64,000 nucleotides of DNA from Actinosynnema sp. ALI-1.44 (GTDB lineage: Bacteria > Actinomycetota > Actinomycetes > Mycobacteriales > Pseudonocardiaceae): assembly GCF_001984155.1 (NCBI RefSeq), contig NZ_MTQO01000042.1, forward strand, positions 186,001 to 250,000, read 5' to 3'. Positions 4,554 to 63,700 of the stretch are shown in pieces (within the stretch, counting starts at the first letter, position 1; each line of letters starts with the position of its first letter). The notes beneath the pieces were generated by a model that had not been told where the DNA came from, made no database searches, and worked only from the letters and a program-made list of their open reading frames with translations. The position numbers and the translations under genes were made by a program.

Positions 4554-7500
4554 TCAGGAGATGCCGAGTTCGTTGGTGATGAAGTCGAGGACCTCGTCGG
4601 TGGACGCGGTTTCGAGGCGTGTGGACACGTCCTCGTCCGCAGGGGTGACGGTCGACTCCTGCCAGCTCGCGAGCAGGTCCTGCAACCGGGCGGTGATGGC
4701 GAGACCCGTTTCGGCGTCGACCCGTAGACCGGCCAAGGTGGACCGCATCCGGTCGAGCGAGCCGAGCGCTGCCGCCGCCGGATCGGCCGCCGCGGGCGCC
4801 AGTTGCCGTTTCAGCTCGGCCGCGAGCGCGGCGGGGGTCGGGTAGTCGAACACGAGTGTCGCGGGCAGCCGCAGACCGGTCGTGGCGTTGAGCCGGTTGC
4901 GGAACTCGACGGCGGTCAGCGAGTCGAAGCCGACCTCGCTGAACGCGCGTTCGGCCTGGATGGCGTCCGTGCTGCTGTGGCCGAGCACGGTCGCGACGTT
5001 TCGGCAGACGAACGACAGCAGCGTCGCGTCGAGTTCGTCCGGCGACAGGCCGGTCAGGCTCTGCTGGAAGGTTTCCGCGCCCCGCGCATCGGTGTGCACG
5101 GTCCGGCGCGCGGTCGATGTCACCAGGCCGCGCAGCAACGGCGGCACGGCGTCGGCTGGCATGTCCCGCAGCTGCCGAGTGTCCAACCGGATCGGCACGA
5201 GCAGCGCGTCGTCCATGTCGAGCGCGCGGTCGAACAGCCCGAGGCCCTCGTCCATCGGCAGCGCGGCCACGCCGGACCGCGAGATCCTTGCGACGCCGTC
5301 GTCACCGAGGTGCCCGGTCATCGCACTGGCGTCCGCCCACAGGCCCCACGCCAGCGATGTCGCGGGCAGGCCCTGGGTGCGGCGGCGCTGCGCCAAGGCG
5401 TCCAGGAAGGTGTTCGCCGCGGCGTAGTTGCCCTGTCCGGGACCACCGAAGACACCGGCCGCCGCGGAGAACAGCGTGAACGACGCCAGGTCCTGGCCTT
5501 CGGTCAGCTCGTGCAGGTTCCACGCCGCGTCCACCTTGGGACGCATCACGACGTCGAGCCGTTCCGGGTTCAGCGACGAGATCACGCCGTCGTCGAGCAC
5601 ACCGGCCGCGTGGACCACCGCTGTGAGCGGGTGTTTCGCGTCCACCGAATCGAGCAACTCGCTTAGCGCGGCCCGGTCGGCCGCGTCACAGGCCGCCACC
5701 CGCACGTCGGCGCCGAGCGCGGTCAACTCCTCGGCCAGTTCGGGAGCGCTGCCGGTGCGGCTGGTGAGCAGGAGGTTGCGGGCGCCGTGCCGGGTGACGA
5801 GCTGCCGGGCCACGGCAGAACCGAGCGTCCCGGTGCCGCCGGTGATCAGCACAGTGCCGTCCGGGTCCAACGCGCGCGGCACGGTCAGCACGATCTTGCC
5901 CGTGTGCAGGCCCTGGGTCATGTGCCGGAACGCGTCGGCCGCGTCCCGGATGTCCCACGTGGTCACCGGCAACGGCTCGAGCGCGCCCTGTTCGATGAGC
6001 GCGAGCACTTCCCGCAGCACCACCGCGGTGGCGGGCGGGCCGATCTCGCTGAGGTCGAACGTCCAGTACTCGACACCGGGGTACCACCCCGCGATCTCGT
6101 CGGGGTCCCGGACGTCGACCCGGCCGAGCTCGACGAATCGCCCGCCGCGCGGCAGCAGGCGCATCGAGGCGTCGACGTACTCCCCGGTCAGCGAGTTGAC
6201 CACGAGGTCGAACCCGTCGCCACCGGTCGTCTCGGCGAACTCCGCTTCGAAGTCGAGGGTTCGTGAGGAGGCGATGTGGTCCTCGTCGAGCCCGGCGGCC
6301 CGCAGCGCGGCCCACTTGCGGGGGCTCGCTGTTCCGTACACGTCGGCGCCGAGGTGCCGGGCGAGTTGCACGGCTGCCATGCCGACCCCGCCCGCGGCGG
6401 CGTGGATCAGCACCGACTCCCCTGCCTGGAGGTCCCCCAGGTCGACGAGCGCCTGGTAGGCGGTGGCGAAGACGATCGGCGAGGCGGCGGCCTGCTCGAA
6501 GGTCCAGGAGTCGGGCATCTTGGCGAGCATGCGCCGGTCGGCCATGGCAACGGTCGCGAAGGCGTACGGGAACATGCCCATCACCCGGTCACCAGGGGCG
6601 AGGTCGGTCACCGCCGAACCGACCTCGAGCACGACGCCTGCGGCTTCTCCGCCGATACCACCCGTGCCGGGGTAGATGTCCAACGCGATCAGCGAGTCGC
6701 GGAAGTTCATGCCCGCGGCGCGCACGGCGATCCGCACCTGGTGTTCGGTCAACGGCTCGAACGCGCGCTCGTTCGGCACCAGCACCAGGTTGTCGACCGT
6801 GCCCCGCTCGGAGAGGTCCAACCGCCAGTCCTGGACACCCGGCGGCGGCACCAGCCGCCCCGACGAGGTCGCCCTGGCCAGCCGGGGCGCCTGATAGCGG
6901 GTACCGCGGCTGACCAGGTCGGGTTCCACGTCGGTCGGCGCCGCGGTCAGCACACCCGGGCTGGTTGGCGCCGAGTCAAGGTCGAGCAGCGCGAGACGTC
7001 CAGGGTTCTCCGAACGGGCGCTGCGCACGAGGCCCCAGACCGCGGCGGACGCCAGGTCGGGTGCGCCCCCACCCCGGCCCGTGCTCACGGCGTTGCGCGT
7101 GACGACGACGAGCTGTGCCTGCTCGAACCTTTCGTCCGCCAGCCATTCCTGGATCAGCCGCAACACCCGCGCGGTGGCCGAGCGCACCGCACCGGGGACC
7201 TGTCCGCTCTCGTCTGCCGTCGACACGAAGACCCGTTGCGGGATTCCGGCGTCCGCGAGTGCGGTGAGGTCCGGGTACGCGGTGACGCCGAGGACTGCCG
7301 CGAGCCCGAGCGGGTCCGCCCCGACCACGGCCACCGGGCCGGAGTCGGTCACCGGCTCGTCGGCCAGAGTCTCCCAGGTGAGCCGGAACAAGTGGTCCTG
7401 CCCCGAATCGACCTCCGGCAGCGCACCCATGGGGCGGAGTGCCAGTGCGGCCACCGAGGCCACGGGCTCTCCGGCGTGGTCGGCGATGTCCACGGACACC

Positions 7501-10500
7501 GCGTGGTCCCCGGACGCGACGAGCCGTACCCGTGCCGAGACGGCTCCGCTTGCGTGCAGCGAGACACCTTGCCAGGCGAAGGGAAGCCAGGGTCCGCCCA
7601 CGCCGTCGCTCGACGCTGCCATCGGGTGCAGTGCGGCGTCGAACAGGGCGGGGTGCAGAGCGAAGCGGGAGACGTCAGTGCCTTCGGGGAGTTCGACCTC
7701 GGCGAAAGTCTCGTTGTCGCGACGCCAAACCTTGCGCATGCCTGCGAAGACCGGGCCGTAGGAGATCCCGATCTCCTCGAACCGCCCGTACAACTCGGCC
7801 GGTGCCACGGCAACCGCTCCGGCTGGTGGCCATTCGCGTAGCGCCTGTGGGACAGCGGGTGCGGTGCCGAGGATTCCGATGGCGTGCTGGGTCCACGGGG
7901 TGGTCGGGTCGTCGAGCCGGTGCGCCCGCGAGTAGATCCGGACCGGTCGTTGTCCGTGCTCCTCGGGGTCGTCGACCCAGACCTGCAACTGCAACGCCCC
8001 GGTTTCGGGGAGCACCAGCGGTGCTTGGAGAGTGAGCTCTTCGAGGGTGGGGCAGCCGACTTCGTCACCGGCACGGATGGCCAGTTCGACCAGGGCCGTG
8101 CCTGGGACCAGCAGGCGCCCGGCGACACGGTGATCAGCCAGCCACGGCACCAAGTCCACTGACACGCGCCCGGTCAGCAGCACCCCACCGGTCTCCGGAA
8201 TCGGAACGGCCGCTCCCAGCAACGGGTGCTCCACCACACCCAGGCCGAGACCCGAGGCATCTCCCCCAGGACCGCTCACGGTGGGCCAGAAACGCTGACG
8301 CTGGAACGCATACGTGGGCAGATCGACTCGAGTCGGCTTGTGAGGGGCGAGGAAAGCCGCCCAATCCACCGATCCGCCCGCGGCCCACAGTTGCCCCGCC
8401 GAACGCAGCACCTGGGCCATGTCACCCTGGTCACGCCGCAATGTCCCGACCACCACACCGTCAGCGATCGTGTCGCCAATTGCCGTGGTCAGAACCGGAT
8501 GCGCCGAGGACTCAACGAAAGTCGAGTAGCCCTGAGCTTGCAAGTCCGCAATAGCTGCGGAGAACTGCACCGTGCGCCGAAGATTGTCCACCCAGTACTC
8601 GGCGTCCATCTCTTCGCCCGACAACCACTCACCCGTCACCGTGGACACCACAGGAACCGTGCCCTTGACCGGCGTGATCGGCCGCAAGACATCTAGCAAC
8701 TCATCGCGAAGACCTTCTACCTGAGGCGAGTGCGAGGCATAGTCCACCTCGATCCGGCGTGCCCGCACCCCCCGCCGCTCACAGTCGCTGATCACATGAT
8801 CGCACGCCGCGACGGTCCCAGAGACCACGATCTGTTCAGCCCCGTTGACAGCCGCGATCGACGCACCCGCGGCCCCGCACACCTCTTGCGCGATTTCCAG
8901 CGAGCAAGACAGCGAGACCATCCCACCCTGACCAGCCAACTTCAAGATCGCCCGACTGCGCAACGCCACAACACGAGCACTATCACTCAATGACAGTGCA
9001 CCAGCAACGCAAGCAGCCGCGATCTCACCCTGAGAATGGCCAACCACAGCAGCAGGAACCACACCCAACGAACGCCACACCTCAGCCAACGACACCATCA
9101 CAGCCCACAACACCGGCTGCACCACATCAACACGAGCCAACGCCACCGAATCAGCCACTACCTCACGCAACGACCAATCAACGTGGGGCGCCAACGCCTC
9201 CCCACATTCCCGCATCCGCACGCCGAACACCGGAGAGGACTCCCACAGAGCATCAGCCATCCCCACCCACTGCGAACCCTGACCAGGGAACACCAACACA
9301 ACCCGGCCACCTGCCCCGGCAACCGCAGCAGGGTCGTCCAGCAGCGCGTTCAGACTCGCCAGCAGCTCATCGCGGGACGAACCCACTGCCACCGCACGCG
9401 ACTCCAACGCCGCACGCGAAGAAACCAGCGAATACGCGACATCCGCGACCGACACGTCAGGCCGATTTTCCACAAAGGACATAAGCCGCTCGACCTGGGC
9501 CCGCAGAGCATCCGAAGTCCTACCGGACAACAACCACGGCACCGCACCACTGGAGACCGGCACGTCCGCCACAACCTCAGCGGGCGCCTCCTCCAGGATG
9601 ACGTGAGCGTTCGTACCGCTGAAACCGAAAGAGGAAACACCGGCACGACGCGGGTGGCCTGAAGGCTCCCACGCCCGTGACTCGGACAGGAGCCGCACCG
9701 CGCCAGCCGACCAGTCCACGTGCGGGGTCGGCTCGTCCACGTGCAGGGTCTGCGGCAGGACACCGTGCCGCATCGCCAGCACCATCTTGATCACACCGGC
9801 AACACCAGCAGCCGCCTGGGTGTGCCCGATGTTCGACTTGACCGACCCCAACCACAACGGCTCAGCGCGATCCTGACCATAAGTGGCCAGCAGAGCCTGC
9901 GCCTCGATCGGATCGCCCAGAGTGGTGCCGGTGCCGTGTGCTTCCACCACATCCACTTCGGACGCGGGAACACCGGCATTGGCCAGGGCCTGCCGGATCA
10001 CCCGCTGCTGCGACGGACCGTTCGGGGCCGTCAACCCGTTCGACGCGCCGTCCTGGTTGATCGCCGAACCCCGCACCACAGCCAAAACCTGATGCCCGTT
10101 GCGCTGAGCATCCGACAACCGCTCCAGCAGGACCACACCAACGCCTTCGGACCAGCTCGTACCGTTCGCGTCGGCGGCGAAGGCCCGGCAACGGCCGTCC
10201 GGGGCAAGCCCGCGCAGACGGCTGAACTCGATGAACGCACGCGGAGTGGTCATCGCGGTGACGCCGCCCGCGGCGGCGAGCGTGCACTCGCCGGTGCGCA
10301 GCGCCTGGATCGCCTGGTGGATCGCGACCAGCGACGACGAGCACGCGGTGTCCACCGTGACCGCGGGCCCCTCGAACCCGAAGGTGTAGGAGACGCGGCC
10401 GGAGGTGACGCTGTAGGCGTTGCCGGTTCCGATGAAGCCGCCGAGACCGTCCCCGCCGGAGTTGAAGAGCATCGCGTAGTCGTTGTTGTTCATGCCGGTG

Positions 10501-13500
10501 AACACACCGGTTCGGCTGCCGCGCAACGAGGCCACGTCGATCCCGGCGTCCTCGAAGACCTCCCACGAGGTCTCCAGGACCAGCCGCTGCTGCGGATCCA
10601 TGGCCAGTGCCTCACGCGGCGAGATCCCGAAGAAGTCGGCGTCGAAGTCGGCGAGGCCGTCGATGAAGCCGCCGTCCCGGACGTACGAGGTGTCCGCGGA
10701 GTCGGGGTCGTCGTCGAAGAGGCGGTCGAGGTCCCAGCCGCGGTCGTTCGGCAACGGGGTGATGCCGTCGCCGCCTGCGACCAGCAGGTCCCACAGTTCG
10801 CTCGGCGTGGTGACACCGCCGGGGAAGCGGCAGGCCATCCCGATGATCGCGATCGGTTCGTCACCCATGGCGGTCGTGGGGGCCACGGTGTGGTCGGCCG
10901 GGGCGTCGTCGAACAGCAGCTCACGCAGGAAGGCCGCGAGGGCGAGCGGGGTCGCGTGGTCGAAGATCAGGGTCGCGGGCAGCCGCAGCCCGGTGGCGGT
11001 GTCGAGCTGGTTGCGGAATTCGACCGCGGTCAGCGAGGTGAATCCGAGGTCGGTGAACGCCCGCGCCGGGGCGACGGCGGAGGAATACTCCAGCACGGCG
11101 GCGATCTGGCCGCAGACCAGGTCCAGCAGTGCGCGTTCGCGCTCAGGGTCGGTCAGCCCGGTCAGCCGCTCCCGCAATGCCCGCGCGGTGGGCGTGTCCG
11201 CCGCTGCGGGGCCGCGCTTCACCTGGGCGCCGGGCAGTTCGTCGAACACGGGGATCGTGCGTCCCGCCGCGAACGCGGGGGCGAACCGGGACCAGTCGGC
11301 GTCGACGATCGCGACGGCGGTTTCCCGTGCCAGCAAGGCGGCTTCGAGCTCCGCGACGGCACGAGCCGGGGACAGCGGTGTCAGGCCCAGGTTGTCGATG
11401 GTCGCGCTGACCGTGGTGTCGTCGGCCATGCCGTCGGCCCAGGGGCCCCACGCGATCGCTGTGGCGGCGAGGCCGTCTGCCCGGCGCTGCCGGGCCAGGA
11501 GGTCCAGGGCGGCGTTGGCCGCGGCGTAGTTGGCCTGGCCGACGTTGCCGAGCACTCCGGCGATCGAGGTGAACAGGACGAACATCGTCAGGTCGTGGCC
11601 CGCGGTCAGCTCGTGCAGGTTGTGCGCCGCGGTGATCTTCGCTGAGGCCACGGCGTCGAGCCTGGCCGGGGTCATGCCGTCGAGCAGGCCGTCGTCCAGC
11701 ACACCCGCGGAGTGCACGACGCCGGTCAGCGGGTATCGCTGGGGAATCGCGTCGAGGACGGCGGCCAGCCGGTCGCGGTCGGCGGCGTCGCAGGCGGCGA
11801 TCGTGACTTCGGCTCCGAGGCTGGTCAGTTCGGCGGCCAGCTCGGCCGCGCCGGGGGCGTCCTGGCCGCGTCGGCTCAACAGCAGCAGGTGTTCGGCGCC
11901 GTTGCCCACGAGCCAGCGTGCGACGTGTGCGCCCAGCGCTCCCGTGCCGCCTGTGATGACCGTGGTTCCCGGCGCGGTCCACCGGCCCTCGTTGGCGACG
12001 CGCGGTGCCCGGACAAGCCTGCTGCCGAACAGACCGGACGGCCGGACCGCGACTTCGGGTTCGCCACCGGCGAGCGCCTCACGGAGGCGCCGAGCGGACA
12101 CCGCGTCGACCGTGCCGGGCAGGTCGATCAGACCGCCCCAACGGCGGGCGTGCTCAAGGGCGGCGACGCGGCCGAGGCCCCAGATCTGGGCCTGGGCGAC
12201 GGCCGTCGGCCGCTCGGTCTCACCGACCGCGACGGCACCGGACGTGACCATCCACAGTGGAGCATCCAGATCCCCGAGTGCCTGCACCAGGACCATCGAC
12301 AGGACCAATCCGGTGGTCACCGCGCCGTGCGGCCGTTCGTCGAGCCCGAGGAACGACACCACACCGGCGAGTTCGGCGTCACCCACCACGGCCCGGATTT
12401 CGGCCGCGACGGTCTCCCGATCGGCGTCCTGACCGAGGACCAGGCGGATCGCGGAATCACCGAAGGTGTCGGCCCATTCCCCGCCCGCTCCGCTGTCGAC
12501 CACGAGCCACCGGCCGGTCGCAGTCCCGGCAGCGGTGACCGGGCGCCACACCATCCGATAGCCGAGCCCTTCGCGCAGGCTGGCCTCGCCGAGCAGCTGA
12601 TCGGGGGTGAAGAAGGGACTGTCGATCCAGTAGCGCTCACGCTGGAAGGCATAGGTGGGCAGGTCGACGCGACGAGTGCCGGAGAAGTAGGCGTCCCAAC
12701 GGATGGGGACGCCACGCGTGTGCAGGCGCGCGACGGCGGTGGTCAGTGCTTCGAGGTCGTCCCGATCAGCCCGCAGCACCGGCACCAACTCGGCCTCGCC
12801 GGGTTCCGCGAGGCAGTCCTGTCCCATGCTGGCCAGTACGGCGTCCGGGCCCAGCTCGACGAACGTCCGCACCCCGTCGGCCTCCAGCGCACGGACACCG
12901 TCTGCGAACCGGACTGTCTCGCGGACGTGCCGCGCCCAGTACCCGGGCGACGTCAGTTCACCTGGTTGCGCGAGCGCGCCAGTGACGTTGGAGACGATCG
13001 GCAGCATCGGCTCGGCGAAGGACAGGCCGGACAACACCGCGCCGAACTCCGCGAGCATCGGCTCCATCAGCGGCGAGTGGAACGCGTGGCTCACCCGCAG
13101 CCGCCGGGTCTTGTACCCCGCCGACGCGAGCTCGTCGGCGATCTCGGTGACGGCTGTGCCCGCCCCGGAGATCACCAGGGACGCTGGCCCGTTGACCGCG
13201 GCGATGGCCACGTCGGACCGGCCTGCCAACAGCAGGGCGACCGCGTCTTCCGGTGCCGCCACCGACACCATCACCCCGCCGTCGGGCAGTCGAGCCATCA
13301 GTTCGCCGCGGGCCTTGACCAGGGTGCACGCGTCAGCCAGTGACAACACACCGGCGACGTGCGCGGCGACGAGTTCGCCGATGGAATGCCCGGCGACGTG
13401 GTCCGGCGTGATCCCCCAGGACTCGACGAGCCGGTAGAGCGCGACCTCGGTGGCGAACAACGCCGACTGGGCGTTGTCGGTGCGGTCGAGGTCACCCGCG

Positions 13501-15278
13501 GTGAACACCAGTTCCCGGTCCAGCCCGAGCAGTCCGCACGCCTCGTCGAAGGTTTCGGCGAAGACGGGGTGGCGCTCGTGCAGCTCGCGGCCCATCCCGG
13601 TGCGCTGGCTGCCCTGACCGGTGAACAGGAACGCCACTTTGCCCGTTGCGCCAGTGCTTCCACGCACGACACCGGGCGCCGCTGCACCACCAGCCACCGC
13701 GGCGAGCCCAGCCCGCAGGTCGGCCAGGGTGGTACCGACCACGACCGCTCGGTCTTCCCAGGAAGTCCTTGTCGTCGCCAGGGAAGCGGCCACGTCGGCC
13801 GGGCACAACGTCTCGTGTTCGGCGAGGAAGGCGTCCAGCCGCACGGCCTGGGCGCGCAACGCCTCCGGCGTCCGCCCGGACAGGACCCACGGCACGATCG
13901 AGGACGGCGTGTCGGCCGGTGTGTCCTCATCGGACTCGGGCACCTGTTCGACGATCACGTGGGCGTTGGTGCCGCTGAACCCGAACGACGAGACCGCCGC
14001 CCGGCGCGCCCGCCCGGTGTCCGGCCACGCCACCGGTTCGGTGACCAGCTCGACCAGTCCTGCCGACCAGTCCACGTGCGGTGACGGCTCGTCGACGTGG
14101 AGGGTCTTGGGCACCACGCCGTGCCGCATCGCCATGACCATCTTGATGACGCCCGCGACCCCGGACGCCGCCTGGGTGTGACCGATGTTCGACTTGACCG
14201 ACCCGAGCAGCAGCGGACGATCGGCCGGGCGGTCCTGCCCGTAGACCGCCAGCAGGGCCTGGGCCTCGATCGGGTCGCCGAGCACAGTGCCGGTGCCGTG
14301 GCCGTCGACGACGTCGACCTGGTCCGCGGTCAGGGTGGCGTCGACGAGCGCCTGCCGGATCACCTGTTGCTGGGCGGGTCCGTTGGGCGCGGTGAGGCCG
14401 TTCGACGCGCCGTCGGAGTTCACCGCCGAGCCCCGGATGACGCCCAGCACCGGGTGACCGTTGCGTCGAGCGTCGGAAAGCTTTTCCAGCAGCAGGACCC
14501 CAGCACCCTCGGCCCAGCCGGTGCCGTCCGCGGCCCCGGCGAAGGACTTGCACCGGCCGTCGGCCGACAGCGCGCGCTGACGGCTGAACTCCACGAACGT
14601 CGCCGGGCTCGCCATCACGGTCGTGCCACCGGCCAACGCGAGCGGGCACTCACCACGCCGCAACGCCTGCACCGCGAGATGCAGCGACACAAGCGAAGAC
14701 GAGCAAGCCGTGTCGACGGTGATCGCCGGGCCCTCGAAACCCATCGTGTACGCGAGCCGTCCGGACACCAGGCTGCCGGAACTGTTGGAGCCGAAGTAGT
14801 CGTGGTACATCACACCGGAGAACACCCCGGTCCGGCTGCCGTGCAACGAAACCGGGTCGATCCCGGCGCGTTCCAACGCCTCCCAGCTGATCTCGAGCAA
14901 CAGCCGCTGCTGCGCGTCGACGGTCGGGGCCTCCCGGGGGCTGATCCCGAAGAACGCGGGATCGAACTCCGCCGCGTCGTGCAGGAAACCGCCCTGCCGG
15001 GTGTAGGAGGTGTACTCCCGCTCGGAATCCGGGTCGTACAGCCGGTCGAGGTCCCAGCCACGGTCGCCCGGGAACTCGGTGATGGCGTCCCCGCCGGACT
15101 CGACCAGCTGCCACAGGTGCTCCGGCGAGCTGATGCCACCGGGATAACGGCAGCTCATGGCGACGATCGCGATCGGCGCGGTGGCGCGTTCCTCCGCCGC
15201 TCGCAGCCGCTCCCGCGTCTGCTGCAGGTCGGTCGTCGCCCGCCTGAGGTACTCGCGGAGCTTGTCCTCATTCGCCAT
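4554..15278 (-). CDS. PKS-E, bimodular type I polyketide synthase (3574 aa)
   Basis: The start ATG at 15278 opens the docking coiled coil MANEDKLREYLRRATTDL. Module E1 is KS-AT(malonyl)-KR-ACP (about residues 33-1470). Module E2 is KS-AT(methylmalonyl)-DH-ER-KR-ACP (1472-3500), followed by a docking tail ending ASTDEVLDFITNELG. KS, AT, DH, ER and ACP motifs look intact in both. The KR of E2 lacks the catalytic Ser: the position after FS is Ala3272. E1 should give a beta-hydroxyl. E2 gives CH2-CH(CH3) if its KR still works, or a ketone if it does not. The gene follows PKS-D after 34 bp and ends 28 bp before PKS-F. Confidence 0.97.
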   Translation of the reverse strand: MANEDKLREYLRRATTDLQQTRERLRAAEERATAPIAIVAMSCRYPGGISSPEHLWQLVESGGDAITEFPGDRGWDLDRLYDPDSEREYTSYTRQGGFLHDAAEFDPAFFGISPREAPTVDAQQRLLLEISWEALERAGIDPVSLHGSRTGVFSGVMYHDYFGSNSSGSLVSGRLAYTMGFEGPAITVDTACSSSLVSLHLAVQALRRGECPLALAGGTTVMASPATFVEFSRQRALSADGRCKSFAGAADGTGWAEGAGVLLLEKLSDARRNGHPVLGVIRGSAVNSDGASNGLTAPNGPAQQQVIRQALVDATLTADQVDVVDGHGTGTVLGDPIEAQALLAVYGQDRPADRPLLLGSVKSNIGHTQAASGVAGVIKMVMAMRHGVVPKTLHVDEPSPHVDWSAGLVELVTEPVAWPDTGRARRAAVSSFGFSGTNAHVIVEQVPESDEDTPADTPSSIVPWVLSGRTPEALRAQAVRLDAFLAEHETLCPADVAASLATTRTSWEDRAVVVGTTLADLRAGLAAVAGGAAAPGVVRGSTGATGKVAFLFTGQGSQRTGMGRELHERHPVFAETFDEACGLLGLDRELVFTAGDLDRTDNAQSALFATEVALYRLVESWGITPDHVAGHSIGELVAAHVAGVLSLADACTLVKARGELMARLPDGGVMVSVAAPEDAVALLLAGRSDVAIAAVNGPASLVISGAGTAVTEIADELASAGYKTRRLRVSHAFHSPLMEPMLAEFGAVLSGLSFAEPMLPIVSNVTGALAQPGELTSPGYWARHVRETVRFADGVRALEADGVRTFVELGPDAVLASMGQDCLAEPGEAELVPVLRADRDDLEALTTAVARLHTRGVPIRWDAYFSGTRRVDLPTYAFQRERYWIDSPFFTPDQLLGEASLREGLGYRMVWRPVTAAGTATGRWLVVDSGAGGEWADTFGDSAIRLVLGQDADRETVAAEIRAVVGDAELAGVVSFLGLDERPHGAVTTGLVLSMVLVQALGDLDAPLWMVTSGAVAVGETERPTAVAQAQIWGLGRVAALEHARRWGGLIDLPGTVDAVSARRLREALAGGEPEVAVRPSGLFGSRLVRAPRVANEGRWTAPGTTVITGGTGALGAHVARWLVGNGAEHLLLLSRRGQDAPGAAELAAELTSLGAEVTIAACDAADRDRLAAVLDAIPQRYPLTGVVHSAGVLDDGLLDGMTPARLDAVASAKITAAHNLHELTAGHDLTMFVLFTSIAGVLGNVGQANYAAANAALDLLARQRRADGLAATAIAWGPWADGMADDTTVSATIDNLGLTPLSPARAVAELEAALLARETAVAIVDADWSRFAPAFAAGRTIPVFDELPGAQVKRGPAAADTPTARALRERLTGLTDPERERALLDLVCGQIAAVLEYSSAVAPARAFTDLGFTSLTAVEFRNQLDTATGLRLPATLIFDHATPLALAAFLRELLFDDAPADHTVAPTTAMGDEPIAIIGMACRFPGGVTTPSELWDLLVAGGDGITPLPNDRGWDLDRLFDDDPDSADTSYVRDGGFIDGLADFDADFFGISPREALAMDPQQRLVLETSWEVFEDAGIDVASLRGSRTGVFTGMNNNDYAMLFNSGGDGLGGFIGTGNAYSVTSGRVSYTFGFEGPAVTVDTACSSSLVAIHQAIQALRTGECTLAAAGGVTAMTTPRAFIEFSRLRGLAPDGRCRAFAADANGTSWSEGVGVVLLERLSDAQRNGHQVLAVVRGSAINQDGASNGLTAPNGPSQQRVIRQALANAGVPASEVDVVEAHGTGTTLGDPIEAQALLATYGQDRAEPLWLGSVKSNIGHTQAAAGVAGVIKMVLAMRHGVLPQTLHVDEPTPHVDWSAGAVRLLSESRAWEPSGHPRRAGVSSFGFSGTNAHVILEEAPAEVVADVPVSSGAVPWLLSGRTSDALRAQVERLMSFVENRPDVSVADVAYSLVSSRAALESRAVAVGSSRDELLASLNALLDDPAAVAGAGGRVVLVFPGQGSQWVGMADALWESSPVFGVRMRECGEALAPHVDWSLREVVADSVALARVDVVQPVLWAVMVSLAEVWRSLGVVPAAVVGHSQGEIAAACVAGALSLSDSARVVALRSRAILKLAGQGGMVSLSCSLEIAQEVCGAAGASIAAVNGAEQIVVSGTVAACDHVISDCERRGVRARRIEVDYASHSPQVEGLRDELLDVLRPITPVKGTVPVVSTVTGEWLSGEEMDAEYWVDNLRRTVQFSAAIADLQAQGYSTFVESSAHPVLTTAIGDTIADGVVVGTLRRDQGDMAQVLRSAGQLWAAGGSVDWAAFLAPHKPTRVDLPTYAFQRQRFWPTVSGPGGDASGLGLGVVEHPLLGAAVPIPETGGVLLTGRVSVDLVPWLADHRVAGRLLVPGTALVELAIRAGDEVGCPTLEELTLQAPLVLPETGALQLQVWVDDPEEHGQRPVRIYSRAHRLDDPTTPWTQHAIGILGTAPAVPQALREWPPAGAVAVAPAELYGRFEEIGISYGPVFAGMRKVWRRDNETFAEVELPEGTDVSRFALHPALFDAALHPMAASSDGVGGPWLPFAWQGVSLHASGAVSARVRLVASGDHAVSVDIADHAGEPVASVAALALRPMGALPEVDSGQDHLFRLTWETLADEPVTDSGPVAVVGADPLGLAAVLGVTAYPDLTALADAGIPQRVFVSTADESGQVPGAVRSATARVLRLIQEWLADERFEQAQLVVVTRNAVSTGRGGGAPDLASAAVWGLVRSARSENPGRLALLDLDSAPTSPGVLTAAPTDVEPDLVSRGTRYQAPRLARATSSGRLVPPPGVQDWRLDLSERGTVDNLVLVPNERAFEPLTEHQVRIAVRAAGMNFRDSLIALDIYPGTGGIGGEAAGVVLEVGSAVTDLAPGDRVMGMFPYAFATVAMADRRMLAKMPDSWTFEQAAASPIVFATAYQALVDLGDLQAGESVLIHAAAGGVGMAAVQLARHLGADVYGTASPRKWAALRAAGLDEDHIASSRTLDFEAEFAETTGGDGFDLVVNSLTGEYVDASMRLLPRGGRFVELGRVDVRDPDEIAGWYPGVEYWTFDLSEIGPPATAVVLREVLALIEQGALEPLPVTTWDIRDAADAFRHMTQGLHTGKIVLTVPRALDPDGTVLITGGTGTLGSAVARQLVTRHGARNLLLTSRTGSAPELAEELTALGADVRVAACDAADRAALSELLDSVDAKHPLTAVVHAAGVLDDGVISSLNPERLDVVMRPKVDAAWNLHELTEGQDLASFTLFSAAAGVFGGPGQGNYAAANTFLDALAQRRRTQGLPATSLAWGLWADASAMTGHLGDDGVARISRSGVAALPMDEGLGLFDRALDMDDALLVPIRLDTRQLRDMPADAVPPLLRGLVTSTARRTVHTDARGAETFQQSLTGLSPDELDATLLSFVCRNVATVLGHSSTDAIQAERAFSEVGFDSLTAVEFRNRLNATTGLRLPATLVFDYPTPAALAAELKRQLAPAAADPAAAALGSLDRMRSTLAGLRVDAETGLAITARLQDLLASWQESTVTPADEDVSTRLETASTDEVLDFITNELGIS
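4800..10863 (-). other. Module E2: KS-AT(methylmalonyl)-DH-ER-KR-ACP, KR missing catalytic Ser
   Basis: AT: RVDVVQ, GHSQG near residue 2081 and YASH near 2182, the methylmalonyl pattern. DH: HRVAGRLLVP near 2383 and LFDAALH. ER: MNFRDSLIALDIYPG and the NADPH loop AAGGVGMAAV near 2963. KR: TGGTGTLG near 3145 and LDD present, Tyr in NYAAAN near 3285, but FS-A-AAG in place of FSSAAG (Ala codon 5463-5465). ACP: VGFDSL near 3453. Confidence 0.9.
8575..8756. repeat. 182 bp perfect repeat, copy 1 (E2 methylmalonyl AT)
   Basis: Identical to 29300-29481. It covers the YASH specificity motif and the following part of the AT of module E2. The flanks are also nearly identical. Confidence 0.9.
10864..15182 (-). 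other. Module E1: KS-AT(malonyl)-KR-ACP
   Basis: KS: DTACSSS near residue 191; the first catalytic His lies in VDGHGTGT (usually VEAHGTGT), so the His itself is kept. AT: GHSIG near 630 and HAFH near 732. No DH follows; the linker leads into the KR. KR: TGGTGALG near 1112, LDD, catalytic Ser in LFTSIAG, Tyr in NYAAAN near 1250. ACP: LGFTSL near 1412. Predicted outcome: a beta-hydroxyl. Confidence 0.9.
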
Positions 15279-15286
15279 CGGTGTTG

Positions 15287-15295
15287 CCTCTCCTT
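15287..15295 (-). promoter_or_regulatory. Ribosome binding site of PKS-E (AAGGAGAGG)
   Basis: AAGGAGAGG ends 8 nt before the ATG at 15278. This strong site decides for ATG 15278 (MANEDKLREYLRR) over an in-frame GTG 33 nt upstream at 15311. Confidence 0.8.
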
Positions 15296-15312
15296 GCCCC
15301 AGTGTCTGCACG

Positions 15313-53178: not shown

Positions 53179-56100
53179 TCACGACCTGCCGAGTTCGCGG
53201 TGGATGAAGTCGAAGAGCTCGTCGTCGCTGGCGGATTCGAGCTGCTCGGCGGCACTCTGCTGCTGTGTCCCGCCGAGCTTCGTCAGCAGGGTCTGCAACC
53301 TCGCGGTGACAGTCCTTGCCGTGGCCTCGCCGACCGCGCTGACGCTTGTCTCGAGCTGTTCCACCAGGTTGAGCAGGTGTTCCTCACCGCCTGACGTCTC
53401 GGTGCCCAGCCCGGCCAACAGGACCTTCGCGAGTTCCTTGGGCGTGGGGTGGTCGTAGACGGCGGTGGCGGACAAGCGGATACCTGTCGCCGCAGTGAGC
53501 TGGTTGCGGAGTTTGACCGCGCCCAGCGAGTCGAAGCCCATGTCGCGGAACGGCTGGCCGCCCGTGATGGCGTCGAGTCCACTGTGGCCCAGCACGGCCG
53601 CGGTCTGGGCGCGGACCAGGTCGAGTACGTGGGTCTCGCGTTCGTACTCGCTCAGCCCGGCCAGTTTCGTCTGCAGTGCCGAGGAATCCGGTTCGACCTC
53701 GTCCGGCGTCGCGCCGCGTTCCACGAGCTCGTCCAGCAGCGGCCGGGGCCGGGCAGCGGCGAAGACCGGGGCGAACGTGGCCCAGTCGATGTCGGCGACC
53801 GCGAGTTCCGTCTCCCGGTCCGCGAGCGCCCTGCCGAGCAGGGCGAACGCGGTTTCGGGCGCCATCATCCGGAATCCGCGGCGGCGCAGGTCCTGTTCGG
53901 CGGCCTCGTCCGGCACCATGTCGCTGCCGCGCCAGGGGCCGAGCGAGACCGAGATCGCGGTGTCACCCCGTTCGACGCGTTGACGGACAAGGGCGTCCAG
54001 CCCGGCGTTGCCCGCTGCTCGAACGGCCTGACCGGCGCCGTCCCACACGCCTCCACTGGAGGAGAACACGATGAACGCGTCCAACGGGGTTCCCGTGCAC
54101 AGCGCGTCGAGGTTGCGCAGGGAAGCCGTACTGCCGTCGATGGCCGAGGTGAACGCGTCCGCGTCGATCCGTTCCACCGCGGTCGGCTCGGGGTAGCCGC
54201 TGAGGTACACGGCCGTGCCGACCGGCTCGGGCAGGTCGGCGACCAGCGCGGCGAGGGCGTCCCGGTCGGCGGAGCCGCAAGTGGACCGGATCAGCAACGC
54301 CCCCGAGGATGTCCGGTGTTCCCCTGTTTCGGCGCAGTCGGTGATCACGACCCGGGTGGCTCCGGCGGCGGCGAGCCAGTCCGCGAGGTGCGTGCCGAGC
54401 GCCTGGTCTCCGCCGACGATCAGCGCTGTTCCCGTGGTCTTCCAGTCCCGCGCGGCCGTTGTCGCAGCAGGCGCGCGGACGAGCCTGCATGCGAGCACAC
54501 GGCCGTCGCGAACGGCCAACTGGTCCTCGCCGCCGCCGTGGGCCAACAGTTCGGGCAGCACGGAGAACGCCGACTCGTCGGGCAGGTCCACCAGGCCACC
54601 CCACCGGTGCGGGTGTTCCCAGCCGAGGACACGGCCGAGTCCCCACAGCTGTGCGTGATCGACGTCCATGGCGCTACCGGAGGTCACTATCCACAGTGGC
54701 GCGTCGATGCCCGCGTCGCCCAACGCCTGGGCCAGTTCCACCGTGGCGGCCGCCCCGCGCGTACCGAAAGCGAGCAGGGAGACGACACCGGCGACGTCAC
54801 CAGCTGCTTCGAGTGCTGCCCGGTCACCGGCCTGGACCGTGATCACCTTGGCGCCTGCGGCTTCGAGGATGAGGCCGATGTCGCCGTCTCCGCCGACCAG
54901 GAGCCAGGTTCCGGTGAGCGGACGGGATGCCCGCGGCGGCAACGTGCGCCATGCCAGCCGGTATCGCAGTGCGTCGAGCGGAGAGGCGACGAGCTTCGGC
55001 GTGGGCTCAGGCCAGAACCGCTTCCGCGTGAACTGGTAGGTCGGCAACGGGATCGAGCGCGCCGCGTCGCCGAACACCCGGCGGAAGTCCGGTTTTCCGC
55101 CGCGCACGTGCAGTTCGGCGAGTGACGTGAGGAACCGCTCGAAGCCGCCGTCGTCGCGCTGCAGGCTGCCGACCACCACGGCAGGCCGCTCACCGAGGTC
55201 GATCGAATCCTGGATCGAGGCGGCGAGCACCGGGTGCGGGCTCACGTCGACGAACCGGTCGAACCCCTCGGCCAGCAGCGCACTCGTGCTCTGCGCGAAC
55301 TGCACAGGTTCCCGCAGGTTGCGGTACCAGTACTCCGGGCCGAGGTCCTCCCCGCCCAGCCAGCCCACAGTCACAGTGGAGAAGAACGGTATCTCTGTCG
55401 CCTGCGGCCGGATCCCGGTGAGGGACGGGACGAAGACGTCACGGATCTGCTCGACGTGCCAGGAATGCGCGGCGAAGTTGACCGGAATCCGCTTCACCCG
55501 GATGTCCTCCGCGCGCAGTTCGTCGGCGAACTCGGCCAGCGCGGCGGGATCGCCCGCGACCACAACGGCACCCGGGCCGTTGATCGTGGCGATCGAGATC
55601 ACGTGCTCACGGCCGCGCAGTCGTTTGACCACAGTGGACTCCGACAGGGCGATCGAGTACACCGCTCCCGCGCCGTCGATCGCTGTCAACGCGCGGGCAC
55701 GCAAGGCGCTGACCTTGGCCGCGTCTGCCAAGCTGAGCGCACCGGCCACGCACGCGGCCGCGACCTCGCCCTGCGAGTGGCCGACGACCGCGGCCGGGTG
55801 AATGCCGTGCGCCTGCCACAGCGCGGCCAGCGACACCATCACCGCGAACAGCACGGGCTGCACCACGTCGACATGGTCCAGATCTGGCGCGCCCGCGGTG
55901 CCGCGGAGCACCTCGGTCACCGACCAGTCGACGTACGGCGCCAGCGCGCGTTCGCAGTCGGCCATGCGTTCGGCGAACGGCGGCGCGGAATCCAGCAGAT
56001 CCACCGCCATGCCCGCCCACTGCGAGCCCTGGCCGGGGAAGACGAACACGACGTCGCCCGAGGTGTCCGCCACCCCGCGCACAAGCCCTGGTGCGGGGGC

Positions 56101-57723
56101 GTCGGCGGCCAGCGCTGACAAACCGGTCAGGAGGGCGTCCCGGTCCGTGCCGATGATCGCGGCGCGGTGTTCCAGCGCGGACCGGCCAGTCGCCAGGGTG
56201 AAGCCGATGTCGGCGACGTCGGCCGTCTCGGCGCTCAGCCACGCGTGCAGGGACGATGCCTGCGCACACAGGGCGTCCCGGGACTTGGCCGAAACCAGCC
56301 ACGGCACCGCTCCATCCACAGTGGATCCATGTTCGGTCGTGGTTGACACCGGAGCCTGCTCGAGAATGGTGTGCGCGTTGGTCCCGCTGACCCCGAACGA
56401 CGACACCGCCGCCCGCCGTGGCCGATCGTTCACCGGCCAACCGCGCTGCTCGGTCAGCAGCCGCACCTGTCCCGATCCCCATGCGACGTGCGGGGTGGGC
56501 TCGTCGACGTGCAGAGTCTGGGGAAGCACTCCGACACGCAGCGCCTGCACCATCTTGATGATCCCGGCGAGCCCGGCCGCCGCCTGCGTGTGCCCGATGT
56601 TGGACTTGACCGACCCCAGCCACAACGGTTCCCCGCCCGCGCGCTCCTGGCCGTAGGTCGCGAGCAGTGCCTGCGCCTCGATCGGGTCGCCGAGCGTGGT
56701 GCCCGTGCCGTGGGCCTCCACGGCGTCGATCTGGTCCGCGGACAGCCGCGCGTTCTCGAGTGCCGCACGGATCACCCGCTGCTGCGAGGGCCCGTTCGGC
56801 GCGGTGATCCCGTTGCTCGCGCCGTCGGAGTTGATCGCGGAGCCACGCACCACGGCCAGCACCGGGTGTCCGAGCCGTTCGGCGTCGGACAGTCGCTCCA
56901 CCAGGAGCATGCCCGCGCCTTCCGACCAGCCGGTCCCGTCCGCCGCCGCGGCGAACGCCTTGCACCGGCCGTCCGGCGCCAACCCGCGCTGACGGCTGAA
57001 CTCCAGGAACGCGTTCGGCGTGGCCATCACCGTGGCCGCCCCGACGAGAGCGAGCGCGCATTCGTTACGTCGCAGCGCCTCCACCGCCCAGTGCAGTGCG
57101 ACCAGCGACGATGAGCACGCGGTGTCGAGGCTGACCGACGGCCCTTCCAACCCGAACACATAGGACAGTCGGCCGGACACCATGCTCGCCGCGTTGCCGG
57201 TTCCGACGTAGCCCGCCAGGTCTTCCTTCGAGCCCGCGGCCAGTTCCACGTAGTCCTGGCCGTTCGTGCCGACGAAGACACCGGTCCGGCTGCCCACGAG
57301 CGAGTCGGCCGCGATGCCCGCGCGTTCGAACACCTCCCACGCTGTTTCCAGCAACAGTCGCTGCTGCGGGTCCAGCGCGAGGGCTTCACGTGGCGGGATG
57401 CCGAAGAAACCGGGGTCGAACTCGGTGGCGTCGACGAACCCGCCGGACGCGGTGTAGCTGGTGCCGGGGTTGTCCGGGTCCGGGTGGTAGAGCGCGTCCA
57501 GGTCCCAGCCGCGGTCGGCCGGGAAGGAGCCGATGGCGTCCGTGCCGGACTCGACCAGCCGCCACAGGTCCTCCGGCGACCGCACCCCACCGGGGAACCG
57601 GCAGCTCATGGCCACGATCGCCACCGGTTCCGGGTTCTCGAACGCGCGCAGGCGCCGCTGTGCCTGCCGCAGTTCGCCGGTGGCCCATTTCAGGCTTTCG
57701 AGCAGCTTTTCGTCAGTTGCCAC
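53179..57723 (-). CDS. PKS-B, single-module type I polyketide synthase: KS-AT-KR(inactive)-ACP
   Basis: This protein of 1,514 residues adds one extender unit. I chose the GTG start at 57723 because it begins a typical docking coiled coil ([18 protein letters not shown]), has a good ribosome binding site, and avoids overlap with PKS-A. KS is at about residues 28-455 with DTACSSS, HGTGT and NIGH intact. AT is at about 545-830 with GHSQG and RDN-type flanks of the methylmalonyl clade, but the specificity motif is FAAH (750-753). KR is at about 900-1330, with the catalytic Tyr replaced by Arg1235 and the NADPH loop altered to VGGDQALG. The ACP Ser is in MGFDSL near residue 1397. The protein ends in the docking helix [15 protein letters not shown]. 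The gene sits 56 bp after PKS-A and 58 bp before PKS-C. Expected outcome: a retained beta-ketone with an alpha-substituent of uncertain identity. Confidence 0.96.
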
Positions 57724-57730
57724 GAGTGCG

Positions 57731-57737
57731 CTTCCTT
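57731..57737 (-). promoter_or_regulatory. Ribosome binding site of PKS-B (AAGGAAG)
   Basis: AAGGAAG lies 7 nt upstream of the GTG at 57723. It supports that GTG as the true start instead of the longer in-frame extension up to 58098, which would overlap the end of PKS-A. Confidence 0.75.
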
Positions 57738-57779
57738 GTTCGGTGGCTGAGGTCTTCGGGCCAGGGGTCTTCGGGGGTG

Positions 57780-60700
57780 TCAGTCCTTGCCGAATTCCTG
57801 TTTGAGGATGTCGAGGATGTCGTCGGCGCTCGCCGATTCGATGTCGCTGTCGCCCTGTTCGCGGTGCCGTTCGGTCCACACCGTGAGCATCGACCGCAGC
57901 CGGGCGGCCACCTGGTCCGGATCGACGACCGCACTGTCCACAGCGGACATCGCGGTCTCCAGCCGATCCAGCTCGGCGAGCACCGATCCGCCGCCGACCG
58001 GCTCGTCCGGCCCGAAGAGCTCGTCGTGCAGGTACGCCACCAACGCCTTGGGCGTCGGGTAGTCGAAGATCATCGTCGTCGGCAACTCGACCCCGCACGC
58101 CTTGTCCATGCGGTTGCGGAACTCCACCGCCCCGAGCGAGTCGAACCCGAGTTCGCTGAACGCCCGGTCCGGCCCGACCGTCTCAGGCCCGTCGTGACCG
58201 AGTGTCGCTGCCGCGTGCGTGCGCACCAGATCAAGCAGGAGACGTTCGCGCTCGGCCGCGGACGCACTCCCGAGCCGGGCGATCAGGTCCGGTTCGGCCG
58301 CCACCGACTGCGCGGTAGTGGCGTTCAGCGCCTTGACCTGTGGCAGTTCGTCGTACAGCCCGTTGTCTCCCACCGCGCCCATGGTCGGCAGGAACCGCGC
58401 CCAGTCGATGTCGGCGACAGTGACCGTGACGTCGCCCCGGCCGAGCGCGCGACCCAGCGCGGACATCGCCTTGGCCGGGTCGAGCGTGTTCATCCCGCCC
58501 GCACGCAACCGGCTCTGCACATCGCCACGGGCGGCCATGCCGTCGGTCCACGGCCCCCACGAGATCGTGGTCGCGGCCAAGCCGTCCGCACGGCGTTGCT
58601 CGGCCAGCGCGTCCAGGAACGCGTTGGCGGCGGCGTAGTTCGCCTGCCCGGCGCTGCCGAAGGTGGCCGCGATGGACGAGTACATCACGAACGCCGACAG
58701 CCCGTGGTCCTTCGTCAACTCGTGCAGGTGCCAGGCCGCCACGGACTTGGCCCGCAGCACGGCTGCCACCCGTTCCGGGGTGAGCGAGTCCAGCACGCCG
58801 TCGTCGAGCACGCCCGCCGCGTGCACAACACCGGTCAGCGGGTACTCGGCCGGAATCCCGGCCAGCAACGCGGCCACCGAGTCACGATCGGACACGTCGC
58901 ACGCGGCGACGGACACCAGCATGCCCGTCTTCGCCAATCTGGCCACGAGTTCGCCCACCCCGGGGGCGTCCTGGCCGCGCCGACTCGCCAGCAGCACGTG
59001 TTCGGTGCCGCGTTCGACGAGCCAGTCACCGAGATACCCGGCCAGCGCACCGGTGCCGCCGGTGACGAGCACGGTCCCGCTGAGGGAGAACTCGGCACCG
59101 CCGTCGGCCGGAGCAGGCACCAGGCGCCGCACGTAGGTCCCGGCCGTACGGATCGCGACCTCGCCTTCGGTGGTGTCCGCGACCGCACTGGTGAGCGCGG
59201 CCAGCGCCCGCGCGGTGGGGTTGGCGGGCAGGTCGATCAGTCCACCCCATTGGTTCGGGTACTCGATCGCGACGCTGCGTCCGACGCCCCAGACCTCGGC
59301 CTGAGTCAGGTTCTCGACGCGGTCGTCCGCGTCGACCGAGACCGCCCCGGCGGTGACCATCCACAACGGAGCCCGTATCCCCGCGTCCACCAACGCCTGT
59401 ACCGCCACCACCGACAACACCGCGTCCGGCAGGAACGACACCACGCCGGTGATCGTCCGCTGCTGCACCGCCGTGGTGATGGCCTCGGCTGTGGTTCGCC
59501 GGTCGGTCGTGACTGTCACCGTGGTCGCGCCGACCTGTTCAGCCCACTCGGCGCCGTCGCCGGTGTGCAGGACGAGCCAGTCGCCCGTGAGCGTGGCACT
59601 GCTTGAGGTGGTACGGCGCCAGACGGCGTGGTACGCCCATCCGTCCACGACAGACGTTTCCTTGCGGCGCTGACGCCACTGTGTCAGCGCGGGCAGAACC
59701 ACATCCAGCGCCGCACTGTCCACACCGAGCACGTCCGACAACGAGGTGCCGTCGCCGTTCTCAAGGACGTCCCAAAGCCTGGAATCCACACCGTCACCAG
59801 CGGCAACGGAACCTGTGCCGTCCAGCCAGTAGTGCTGCCGCTGGAACGCGTACGTGGGCAGGTCGACCCGGTTCGGCTTGTAGGGCGCGAAGAACGCAAC
59901 CCAATCCACGGTCACGCCGTGGGTGTGCAAACGCGCCAACGCCTGCACAAGTTCAGTCTCAGTGTCACGCCCCCGACGCAGGGTCGGGATGAAGGCGACG
60001 TTGTCCGGTCCCATCGCCGACAACACCGCATCCGGCCCGATCTCCAGAACAGTGTTCACACCGAGGTTCGCCACGGCATCAGCGAACCGAACCGGCTCGC
60101 GAACCTGCCGTACCCAATAGCCCGGGTCGCCCCACTCACTCGTGACCGCCGCACCAGTAACGGTCGAAACACCGCGGAGACTCGGTGTCCCCCACTCGAT
60201 ACCCGAGATCGCCTCAGCGAACTCGCCCAACATCGGCTCCATCAACGCCGAATGGAACGCATGACTCACCCGCAACCTACGAGTCTTCACATCCAACACG
60301 GCGACAACCTGGTCAACCGCAGACTCAAGACCCGACAACACCACCGAAGCCGGACCGTTCACCGCAGCGATCGACACGCCCTCGACCAGAAGTGGGGCAA
60401 CTGTGTCCTCGCTGGCGGCAACAGCGACCATCACGCCACCCTCAGGCAACGCCTGCATCAACTTCGCCCTGGCCGACACCAACGAACACGCGCCTTCCAG
60501 AGAGAGAACCCCAGCGACATGAGCCGCAGCGATCTCACCAACCGAGTGACCCGCAACCACCTCAGCCTTGAGACCCCACGCCTGCAACTGCCGCCACAAA
60601 GCCACCTCGACCATGAACAGCACCCGCTGCGCGATCCCCGTGGGATCAACGACCGCATCCGGGTCAGTCACCACCGACGGCTCCAGGCCCATCAGGGCAC

Positions 60701-63700
60701 AGATCTCGTCCACAGCCTCGGTGAACACCTCGAACCGGCCATACAACCCCGCAGCCATCCCAGCCCACTGAGCACCCTGACCGGTAAACACCACACCGAC
60801 CCGACCAGACCCACCCACCACATCAACCGTCGTCAGGCCCGCCAGCAGATCCTCACACGTAGGCCCTACAACAGCGGCCCTCTGATCCATGGCCACACGC
60901 GAAGTCGCTAGCGAGTAGGCCACATCCACCGCGGACAACTCAGGGCGGTCCTCCACAAACGACCGCAGCCGTAGAGCCTGCGACAGCACCGCCTCCGGGC
61001 TCTTGCCCGACAACACCCACGGCACGACAGCGGAAACCTGCGTCTCCACCGCGGCTGTCACCGGAGGCTGCTCGATGATCACGTGAGCGTTCGTGCCACT
61101 GAACCCGAACGACGACACACCCGCCCGGCGAGGACGGCCGTCGGTGTCCCAGGCGCGCTGCTCAGTCAGCAACCGCACCGCACCGCTCGCCCAGTCCACG
61201 TGCGGTGTCGGCTCGTCGACGTGCAAGGTCCTCGGCAGGACGCCGTGGCGCATGGCCTGCACCATCTTGATCACACCGCCGACACCCGCGGCGGCCTGCG
61301 CGTGCCCGATGTTCGACTTCAACGACCCCAGCCACAGCGGTTCGCCGCGGTCCTGGCCGTAGGTCGCCAGCAGTGCCTGTGCCTCGATCGGATCACCCAG
61401 GGTGGTGCCCGTGCCGTGGGCTTCGACCGCGTCCACTTCGGAGGGAGCGATACCGGCGTTCGCCAACGCCTGCATGATCACCCGCTGCTGCGACGGTCCG
61501 TTCGGCGCCGTCAGACCATTCGACGCGCCGTCCTGGTTGATCGCCGAACCCCGTACCACCGCAAGGATCGGGTGCCCCAGCCGCTGAGCATCCGACAGCC
61601 GCTCCACCAGCAGCATGCCCACACCCTCACCCCAGCCGGTGCCATCGGCAGCGGCCGAGAACGCCTTGCACCGGCCATCAGCCGACAGACCACGCTGACG
61701 ACTGAAGTCCACAAACGTGTGTGGTGTGGCCATGACCGTCACACCACCGGCCAGCGCCAGGCTGCACTCGCCCTGCCGCAGAGCCTGCACCGCCAGATGC
61801 AACGCGACCAGCGACGAGGAACACGCCGTGTCGACCGTGACCGCTGGGCCTTCGAACCCGAAGGTGTACGACACCCGGCCCGACACCACACTGCTCGAAC
61901 TGCCGGTGCCGAGGTACCCCTCGAACTCCTCGGGGACTTCGCTCAACCGGGTCCCGTAGTCGTGGTACGCGACACCGGTGAACACACCGGTCCGGCTCCC
62001 CCGAATCGACGCCGGGTCTATCCCCGCACGCTCCAACGCCTCCCACGAGGTCTCCAGCAACAGCCGCTGCTGCGGGTCCATCGCGGTGGCCTCCCGCGGG
62101 CTGATCCCGAAGAACTCCGCGTCGAACTCCGCCGCCTCGTGCAGGAATCCGCCATGCCGCGTGTACGACGTCCCCGCACGCGACAGCTCCGGGTCATACA
62201 GGTTCTCGACGTCCCAGCCGCGGTCGGTCGGAAACATCGAGATCGCATCCGTCCCGGACGCCACCAGATCCCACAGACCCTCAGGCGAGAACACCCCACC
62301 CGGGTAACGGCACGCCATCCCCACGATCACCACCGGCTCGTCGAGCACGGCGGCGGTGACCGGGACTTCCGTCGCCTGCCGGGCTTCACCCAGCAACTGT
62401 CCGGCGAGCATTTCGACGAGCGCTTCGGGTGTCGGGTAGTCGAAAACCAGCGTGGCGGGCAACTGCAGCCCGGTCGAAACCCACATCTGGTTGCGGAACT
62501 CCACCGCGGACAGTGACGTGAAGCCCAAGTCCGTGAACGGCCTGGTGAACGAGATACCGGCGCCGTCACGGTGTCCGAGGACCCGCGCGATGCTCGTACG
62601 AACGAGGTCCGCCAGTAGGCGGCCTCGCTCAGTCTCATCGGCGTCACGCAACTGCCGCGCAAGCTGATCACGAGTAGCCGTTGTCAGCCCGCGCACCGCC
62701 TCAACCGCATCCGGCAGCTCATTGAACACCTTGTGCGCGTTCGCTGCGGTGAACTGCGCCACGAACCGCGACCAGTCCACATCGGCAACAGTGACCGTGG
62801 CTTCCTTACGGTCAAGCGCCTGACCCAATGCTGGCAACACCTGCTCGGCGGGCAGCGTGTTCATGCCACTTTCACGCAACCGAGCCCGCACAGCATCGTC
62901 ACCTGTGTCGGCCCACGGGCCCCACGCGATCGACGTCCCCGGCAGCCCGTCAGCCCGGCGCTGCTGCATCAACGCATCCAGGAACGCGCTCGCCGCGGCG
63001 TAGTTCGCCTGCCCCGCACTCCCGAAAGTCGCCGCCGTCGACGAGAACACCACGAACGCGGACAGGTCGAGGTCCCGGGTCAACTCGTGCAGGTCCCACG
63101 CCGGACGGGCCTTGACCTGCAACACGGCCTCGACCTGTTCCGCAGTCAACGACTGCAGCACACCGTCATCCACGCCGTCCGCCGCATGCACCACAGCGGA
63201 CACCGGCGACTCTGCCGGAACTGTCGTCAACGCCGCAACGATCGCGTCCCGGTCACAGGGATCTTCGATCACCACGAAGTGCTCAGCACCCCGGTCCGAC
63301 AGCCAGTCCCGTAGCGCGTCGTCCAGCACACCTGTTACCACAACCGTGCCGCTGCAGGACCATTCCAGCTCGTTCGCCTTGGCTGAGGCCGGAACCAGAC
63401 GCCGCGTGTACACGCCCGAGTCCCGAAGCGCGACCTCACACTCCGATCCCGCCACGAGCACGGTCGTGAGCAGGCTCCAAACCCGTTCCGAAGCCCCAAC
63501 CGGCAGGTCGATCAACCCGCCCCAGTGGTTCGGGTGCTCGAGTGCGACCGTGCGTCCGACGCCCCAGACCTCGGCCTGAGTCAGGTTCTCGATCCGCTCA
63601 CCAGCGTCGACCGACACAGCGCCGGTGGTGACCATCCACATCGGAGCCCGCACACCCGCGTCCATCAACGCCTGCACCGCCAGCACTGACAACGGGGCAT

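Follow-up and report, generated by a model that had tools for sequence, protein, structure and literature searches.

The ketoreductase (KR) of module E2, in a large modular polyketide synthase (PKS) of Actinosynnema sp. ALI-1.44, has alanine where the catalytic serine is usual, and we predict that it is very probably a functioning B-type ketoreductase of a Ser-less kind, in a module that yields CH2. What we observe is the substitution in an otherwise intact module, together with Ala or Gly that recurs, and is conserved, at the equivalent position where reduction is required. The unit added by E2 is most likely alpha-methyl, beta-methylene. The window, by which we mean the whole 64,000-nucleotide stretch analysed, sits in a large cis-AT PKS cluster on the minus strand. 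We traced this cluster from roughly 159.5 kb up to 258.4 kb, where the contig ends; the host assembly totals 11.7 Mb in 54 contigs. The contig stops at 258398 inside the cluster, and no loading module was seen up to its end.

The variant residue is amino acid 3283 of a bimodular protein (Table 1). Its FSAAAG motif reads in frame (5471-5454) within a 3585-residue open reading frame, and the Ala lies 24 residues after Lys3259 and 13 before Tyr3296, a register that matches the spacing of Lys1776, Ser1800 and Tyr1813 in DEBS1 (PMC3422181). The sequence-only reading had claimed that this motif lacks the usual catalytic Ser and that the other complete KRs keep it, and both observations hold: Ser occupies the position in all 11 other scorable KRs of the window, and the remaining three DH-ER modules seen in the same cluster also have a KR with Ser. 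When E2 was compared with solved structures by phmmer, the Ala aligned to Ser in each of the five chains read (5 of 118 matching sequences). A second solved-structure search again gave Ser in 5/5 alignments read (of 77 matching sequences), with chains that overlap the first five.

Table 1. Features of the E2 module and its ketoreductase (positions in the window).
Feature	Position	Strand	Basis
Bimodular PKS protein (E1 KS-AT-KR-ACP, E2 KS-AT-DH-ER-KR-ACP)	4554..15311	-	ORF, translation, HMM domain map
E2 AT, GHSQGE and YASH, read as methylmalonyl-specific	8358..9299	-	HMM, motifs
E2 DH, HxxxGxxxxP, YGP, HPALFD	7434..8231	-	HMM, motifs
E2 ER, AAAGGVGMAA	5883..6827	-	HMM, motifs
E2 catalytic KR (cofactor loop 5820-5843, LDD 5589-5597)	5208..5858	-	HMM, motifs
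Ala codon at the Ser position (aa 3283), within FSAAAG 5454-5471	5463..5465	-	Alignment
Catalytic Lys codon (aa 3259), kept	5535..5537	-	Alignment, motif
Catalytic Tyr codon (aa 3296), kept	5424..5426	-	Alignment, motif
Catalytic Asn codon (aa 3300), kept	5412..5414	-	Alignment, motif
Lid Thr (+49) to His (+51), GMTxHL-like	5310..5318	-	Over-represented in Ala/Gly KRs; lead only

Apart from this residue, the module is intact, as had also been claimed for its cofactor loop, LDD, Tyr, DH and ER. The KR keeps its TGGTGTLG loop and LDD as well as Lys, Tyr and Asn; none of the motifs listed in Table 1 is missing from the DH or ER. The best solved-chain matches, 8g7w and 9pat, are B-type KRs of actinomycete cis-AT DH-ER-KR modules; E2 resembles them in cofactor loop, LDD, Lys, Tyr, Asn, module architecture and the lack of Pro two residues after Tyr, but differs in having Ala for the tetrad Ser. 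Of the features of a reducing B-type KR, the TGGTGxLG loop, LDD and Lys/Tyr/Asn are therefore present and the Ser of the canonical tetrad is not, and because of that absence we describe the domain as a Ser-less variant rather than a canonical B-type member. We also considered the non-reducing C-type KRs, which likewise deviate from the tetrad. Those described in PMC11228615 lack the Tyr or have changes in the NADPH site, some with Gln for Tyr, whereas E2 keeps both Tyr and NADPH loop and does not fit this class. An incomplete tetrad in otherwise intact surroundings is also what a recent loss would leave, since a single-base change would spare everything else. The KR would then be dead, the beta-ketone would be passed on, and DH and ER would be idle relics, a reading that we consider very improbable on the evidence below.

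Ser-to-Ala mutants retain partial activity in some SDR enzymes and not in others. In the accepted KR mechanism, the pKa of Tyr is lowered by Lys, both are oriented by Asn, and binding of the ketone is aided by Ser (PMC3962154), which binds the ketone also according to PMC3422181. Mutating the Tyr and Ser of KRs removed much of their epimerase activity (PMC5331325), and Tyr to Phe has been used to abolish KR reduction (PMC12636015). The latter fits the expectation that losing a hydrogen bond for ketone binding should be easier to tolerate than losing the proton donor. Applied to E2, the intact cofactor loop would hold NADPH, Tyr3296, with Lys3259 tuning it and Asn3300 orienting it, would donate the proton, and hydride would add to the beta-ketone. 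The second hydrogen bond to the ketone, normally from the Ser hydroxyl, would be absent, with a small residue tolerated in its place (Ala in E2, Ala or Gly in relatives), and the enzyme would work with Tyr alone or aided by a neighbouring residue or water. DH and ER would then act normally, giving the alpha-methyl, beta-CH2 unit. Regarding precedents, PMC6212451 contains the phrases 'catalytic serine' and 'S to A' in the text available and might report a Ser-to-Ala KR, and two 'serine to alanine' papers were set aside, as both, in the text available, concern AT domains. We found no report of natural Ala/Gly KRs in the literature searched, which placed most subscription journals outside its scope, and we do not claim that there is none.

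We examined how often Ala or Gly occurs at this position among related KRs. Genome contigs were searched with the E2 KR as query and the best 80 loci were kept. In addition, 249 genomes of the host family were searched with the ER-KR-ACP stretch, which, with a few places from a search of the genus, gave 100 regions. Matches in a plasmid collection (537 records) did not enter the survey. Because loci were chosen by nearness to the query, they are not a random sample. HMMs built from the window were used to annotate 253 records, window included. We required at least 90% HMM coverage and dropped exact duplicate sequences; KRs cut upstream were assigned to the DH-ER or DH class if an ER or DH directly precedes them, and otherwise to a truncated class. 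An earlier count of 224 KRs at 80% coverage contained one low-scoring false match.

Alignment of the E2 KR with a large set of characterised KRs had been proposed with the sequence-only reading, and across the 503 distinct KRs of these related loci the substitution recurs: 476 have Ser, 27 have Ala or Gly, and no other residue was found. Ala or Gly was present in 15/184 KRs of DH-ER modules, 7/190 of DH modules, 3/110 of KR-only modules and 2/19 in truncated contexts (14/141, 6/161, 3/87 and 1/14, respectively, with one representative per 85% identity cluster). Loss of Lys, Tyr or Asn (one or more of them) was distributed differently, with 14/110 in KR-only modules, 1/190 in DH modules, 0/184 in DH-ER modules and 1/19 in truncated contexts. 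A DH-ER module requires a functioning KR. If Ala or Gly were inactivating, lesions in Lys, Tyr or Asn and drift past two small residues would be expected; neither was seen in these modules. The alternative given in the sequence-only reading, a dead KR that leaves a ketone where CH2 is expected, is therefore unsupported: in DH-ER modules Ala/Gly occurs 15 times in 184 KRs and loss of Lys, Tyr or Asn not once, with Ala and Gly the sole substitutes.

In other respects the Ala/Gly KRs look sound. Lys, Tyr and Asn are all present in 26 of the 27 (the exception is in locus L226), and the Ser just before the variant position is present in all 27. In DH-ER modules, the ER loop is intact beside 15/15 Ala/Gly KRs versus 158/165 Ser KRs. 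Among full-length DHs, those beside Ala/Gly KRs carry the Asp motif in 12/12 cases (versus 157/157 beside Ser KRs). The YGP pattern matches in 10/12 (versus 145/157) and a strict first-His pattern in 9/12 (versus 123/157), which we count on the other side. By HMM score, the Ala/Gly KRs of these modules do not differ from those with Ser (p 0.84). A FastTree phylogeny of 384 KRs was built with the Ser-position column omitted; it took a single member of each 85% cluster and left out the truncated class and any KR lacking Lys or Tyr. On this tree Ser and Ala/Gly interchange at least 15 times, a rough figure, since strong support is limited to a few branches, which carry 3 independent pairs. An apparent enrichment of Ala/Gly in DH-ER modules (15/184 versus 10/300, p 0.03; cluster representatives, 14/141 versus 9/248, p 0.014, both before allowing for relatedness) was not seen in the contig-scan loci alone (3/44 versus 5/125, p 0.43) and is unsupported once relatedness is respected, and we do not claim it.

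Recurrence in other genomes also means that no base-call error is needed. A single base separates such Ala and Ser codons, so a misread Ser codon in E2 would suffice, but Ala/Gly in 27/503 KRs leaves this among the least probable accounts of the substitution. Neither the 8 genomes searched for the genus, own included (best other match 58%), nor the 249 searched for the family (best other 59%) contain a close relative of the E2 module. A DH-ER-KR module of Amycolatopsis sp. A133 is like E2 in module type and in its LFSAAAGVF motif, although it is only 56% identical over the aligned module and belongs to a different cluster.

The related loci included a PKS of Streptomyces violaceusniger NBRC 13459 with Ala/Gly KRs, for which a product can be proposed. 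We read it over 160 kb (4515001-4675000), where a loading ACP and 27 modules extend from 4522867 to 4665070 despite draft frameshifts. Its ATs (23 with HAFH, 4 with YASH) correspond to a chain of 63 carbons if a guanidinobutyryl starter is assumed, and module 14, which is KR-only, sets C29. Clethramycin is C63H99N3O18S (PMC9740855), its C29 hydroxyl is sulfated, and the PKSs for clethramycin and mediomycin comprise 27 extension modules, with three of these PKSs about 96% identical and with conserved active-site motifs (PMC5704753). The module number, the C63 chain and the C29 hydroxyl all match clethramycin, and from this cluster architecture we infer that the PKS is of clethramycin type. The clethramycin strain was once named S. 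violaceusniger (PMC5704753). Near this PKS, the sulfotransferase gene slf had no match above the cut-off; one PF13469 match under the cut-off, at 4501610, is separated from the last PKS module by some 21 kb. A pair of genes for an ATP-grasp peptide maturase and a methyltransferase (TIGR04187, TIGR04188) is present at one end; these could be, but need not be, the peptide genes described as lantibiotic in PMC5704753.

In five KRs of this PKS the Ser is replaced, by Gly in modules 3 and 22 and by Ala in modules 8, 12 and 23. Like E2, they keep Lys, Tyr and Asn; unlike E2, they are in DH-KR or KR-only modules, not in DH-ER modules. Four of the 27 KRs (modules 6, 18, 24 and 25), which the draft breaks into pieces, were left unscored. 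We compared the unreduced chain, C63H73N3O29, with desulfoclethramycin, C63H99N3O15, by a mass balance in which hydroxyls (a), double bonds (b), methylenes (c) and ketones (d) sum to 27. This gives b + c = 14 and a + c = 13, hence d = c, and because the PKS has one ER, the number of ketones is 0 or 1. The calculated [M+H]+ of desulfoclethramycin is 1138.715, with 1138.8 reported (PMC5704753); the alternatives that come close to the measured mass require nine or ten ketones and a different formula. Module 13, in which K-H-Q-N replaces K-S-Y-N, has the one scored KR without Tyr and, from these residues, would be the obvious ketone position of the chain. Gln for Tyr occurs in C2-type KRs (PMC11228615). 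With at most one ketone, taken by module 13, all five Ala/Gly KRs must therefore reduce; through the product formula we infer that they do, if the clethramycin identification holds. This counts against a dead KR in E2, and, together with recurrence in DH-ER modules, it bears out the alternative allowed by the sequence-only reading, a working variant, if the published formula applies. The balance needs 12 hydroxyls. Ten would come from the KR-only modules, one from module 12, in whose DH HGP replaces YGP, and the last from a module with an apparently intact DH, so that one silent DH is demanded beyond those recognisable in the PKS. A similar arrangement is present on contig 5 of Kitasatospora sp. 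GAS204B, in which a methylmalonyl KR-only module with a Gly KR is followed by a DH module with an Ala KR and then a DH-ER module, as in S. violaceusniger.

The Ala of module 8 is conserved. We searched for this module in 295 genomes around that of S. violaceusniger NBRC 13459 and fetched 30 loci, which included five further clear orthologues (97, 96, 95, 91 and 83% identity). Ala is present in 6/6 clear orthologues, own included, with the codon GCC in five and GCG in one, and dN/dS ranges from 0.10 to 0.42 over 15 pairs, so the Ala has been kept under purifying selection, which also weighs against a dead KR in E2. The next two loci (70 and 69% identity), whose orthology to module 8 is not established, have Ala as well, and the other 22 of the 30 have Ser. 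S. rugosispiralis has the same motif in the module matching module 8.

A special form of the preferred reading is that the E2 KR is active only through a hydrogen bond from lid residues Thr+49 and His+51. Thr+49 is present in 20/20 Ala/Gly KRs of DH and DH-ER modules compared with 172/279 Ser KRs, and His+51 in 15/20 compared with 60/279 (p 1.6e-6 among 1878 tests). In a model of DEBS1, a lid at about residues 1847-1856 touches the substrate or phosphopantetheine (PMC3422181). However, the link is not significant when relatedness is respected, with just 3 independent pairs on supported branches, and in the clethramycin-type PKS modules 3, 12 and 22 have Ala or Gly with neither residue, while 8 and 23 have Thr+49 and lack His+51. 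We therefore rejected lid covariation as a requirement and kept it as a lead; the association may reflect lineage, and activity dependent on the lid is unlikely, at about one chance in a handful. More broadly, it is somewhat probable that Ala/Gly KRs are a recurrent, natural and active KR variant that arose many times, with Ser dispensable in this branch of the SDR enzymes and lid residues perhaps substituting in some. A further alternative is that the E2 KR is inactive and its ketone is reduced by another KR of the assembly line, as proposed for tetromadurin module 12 (PMC7489565). Such help is unnecessary if Ala/Gly KRs work, and we regard it as highly improbable.

These differences matter for product prediction, in which a KR without the usual Ser may be drawn as giving a ketone or CH2; the present evidence favours CH2. 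If this is true, a reader or program that calls Ala/Gly KRs inactive will mispredict products. The natural series of Ser, Ala and Gly in otherwise intact KRs also offers a probe for the role of the second hydrogen-bond donor in SDR enzymes, and some of these KRs have products that may be assigned.

Two other KRs of the window, both on the minus strand, deviate from the tetrad in other ways. The KR at 53812-54432, in a single-module protein (53179-58098), has Ser in place of Lys and Arg in place of Tyr (S-S-R-N), and thus carries a lesion of the kind expected in a dead KR. The KR at 62802-63464 has a degenerate cofactor loop (TGVLDDAL where TGGTGxLG is usual), its catalytic Asn is replaced by Ser, and it is probably non-reducing.
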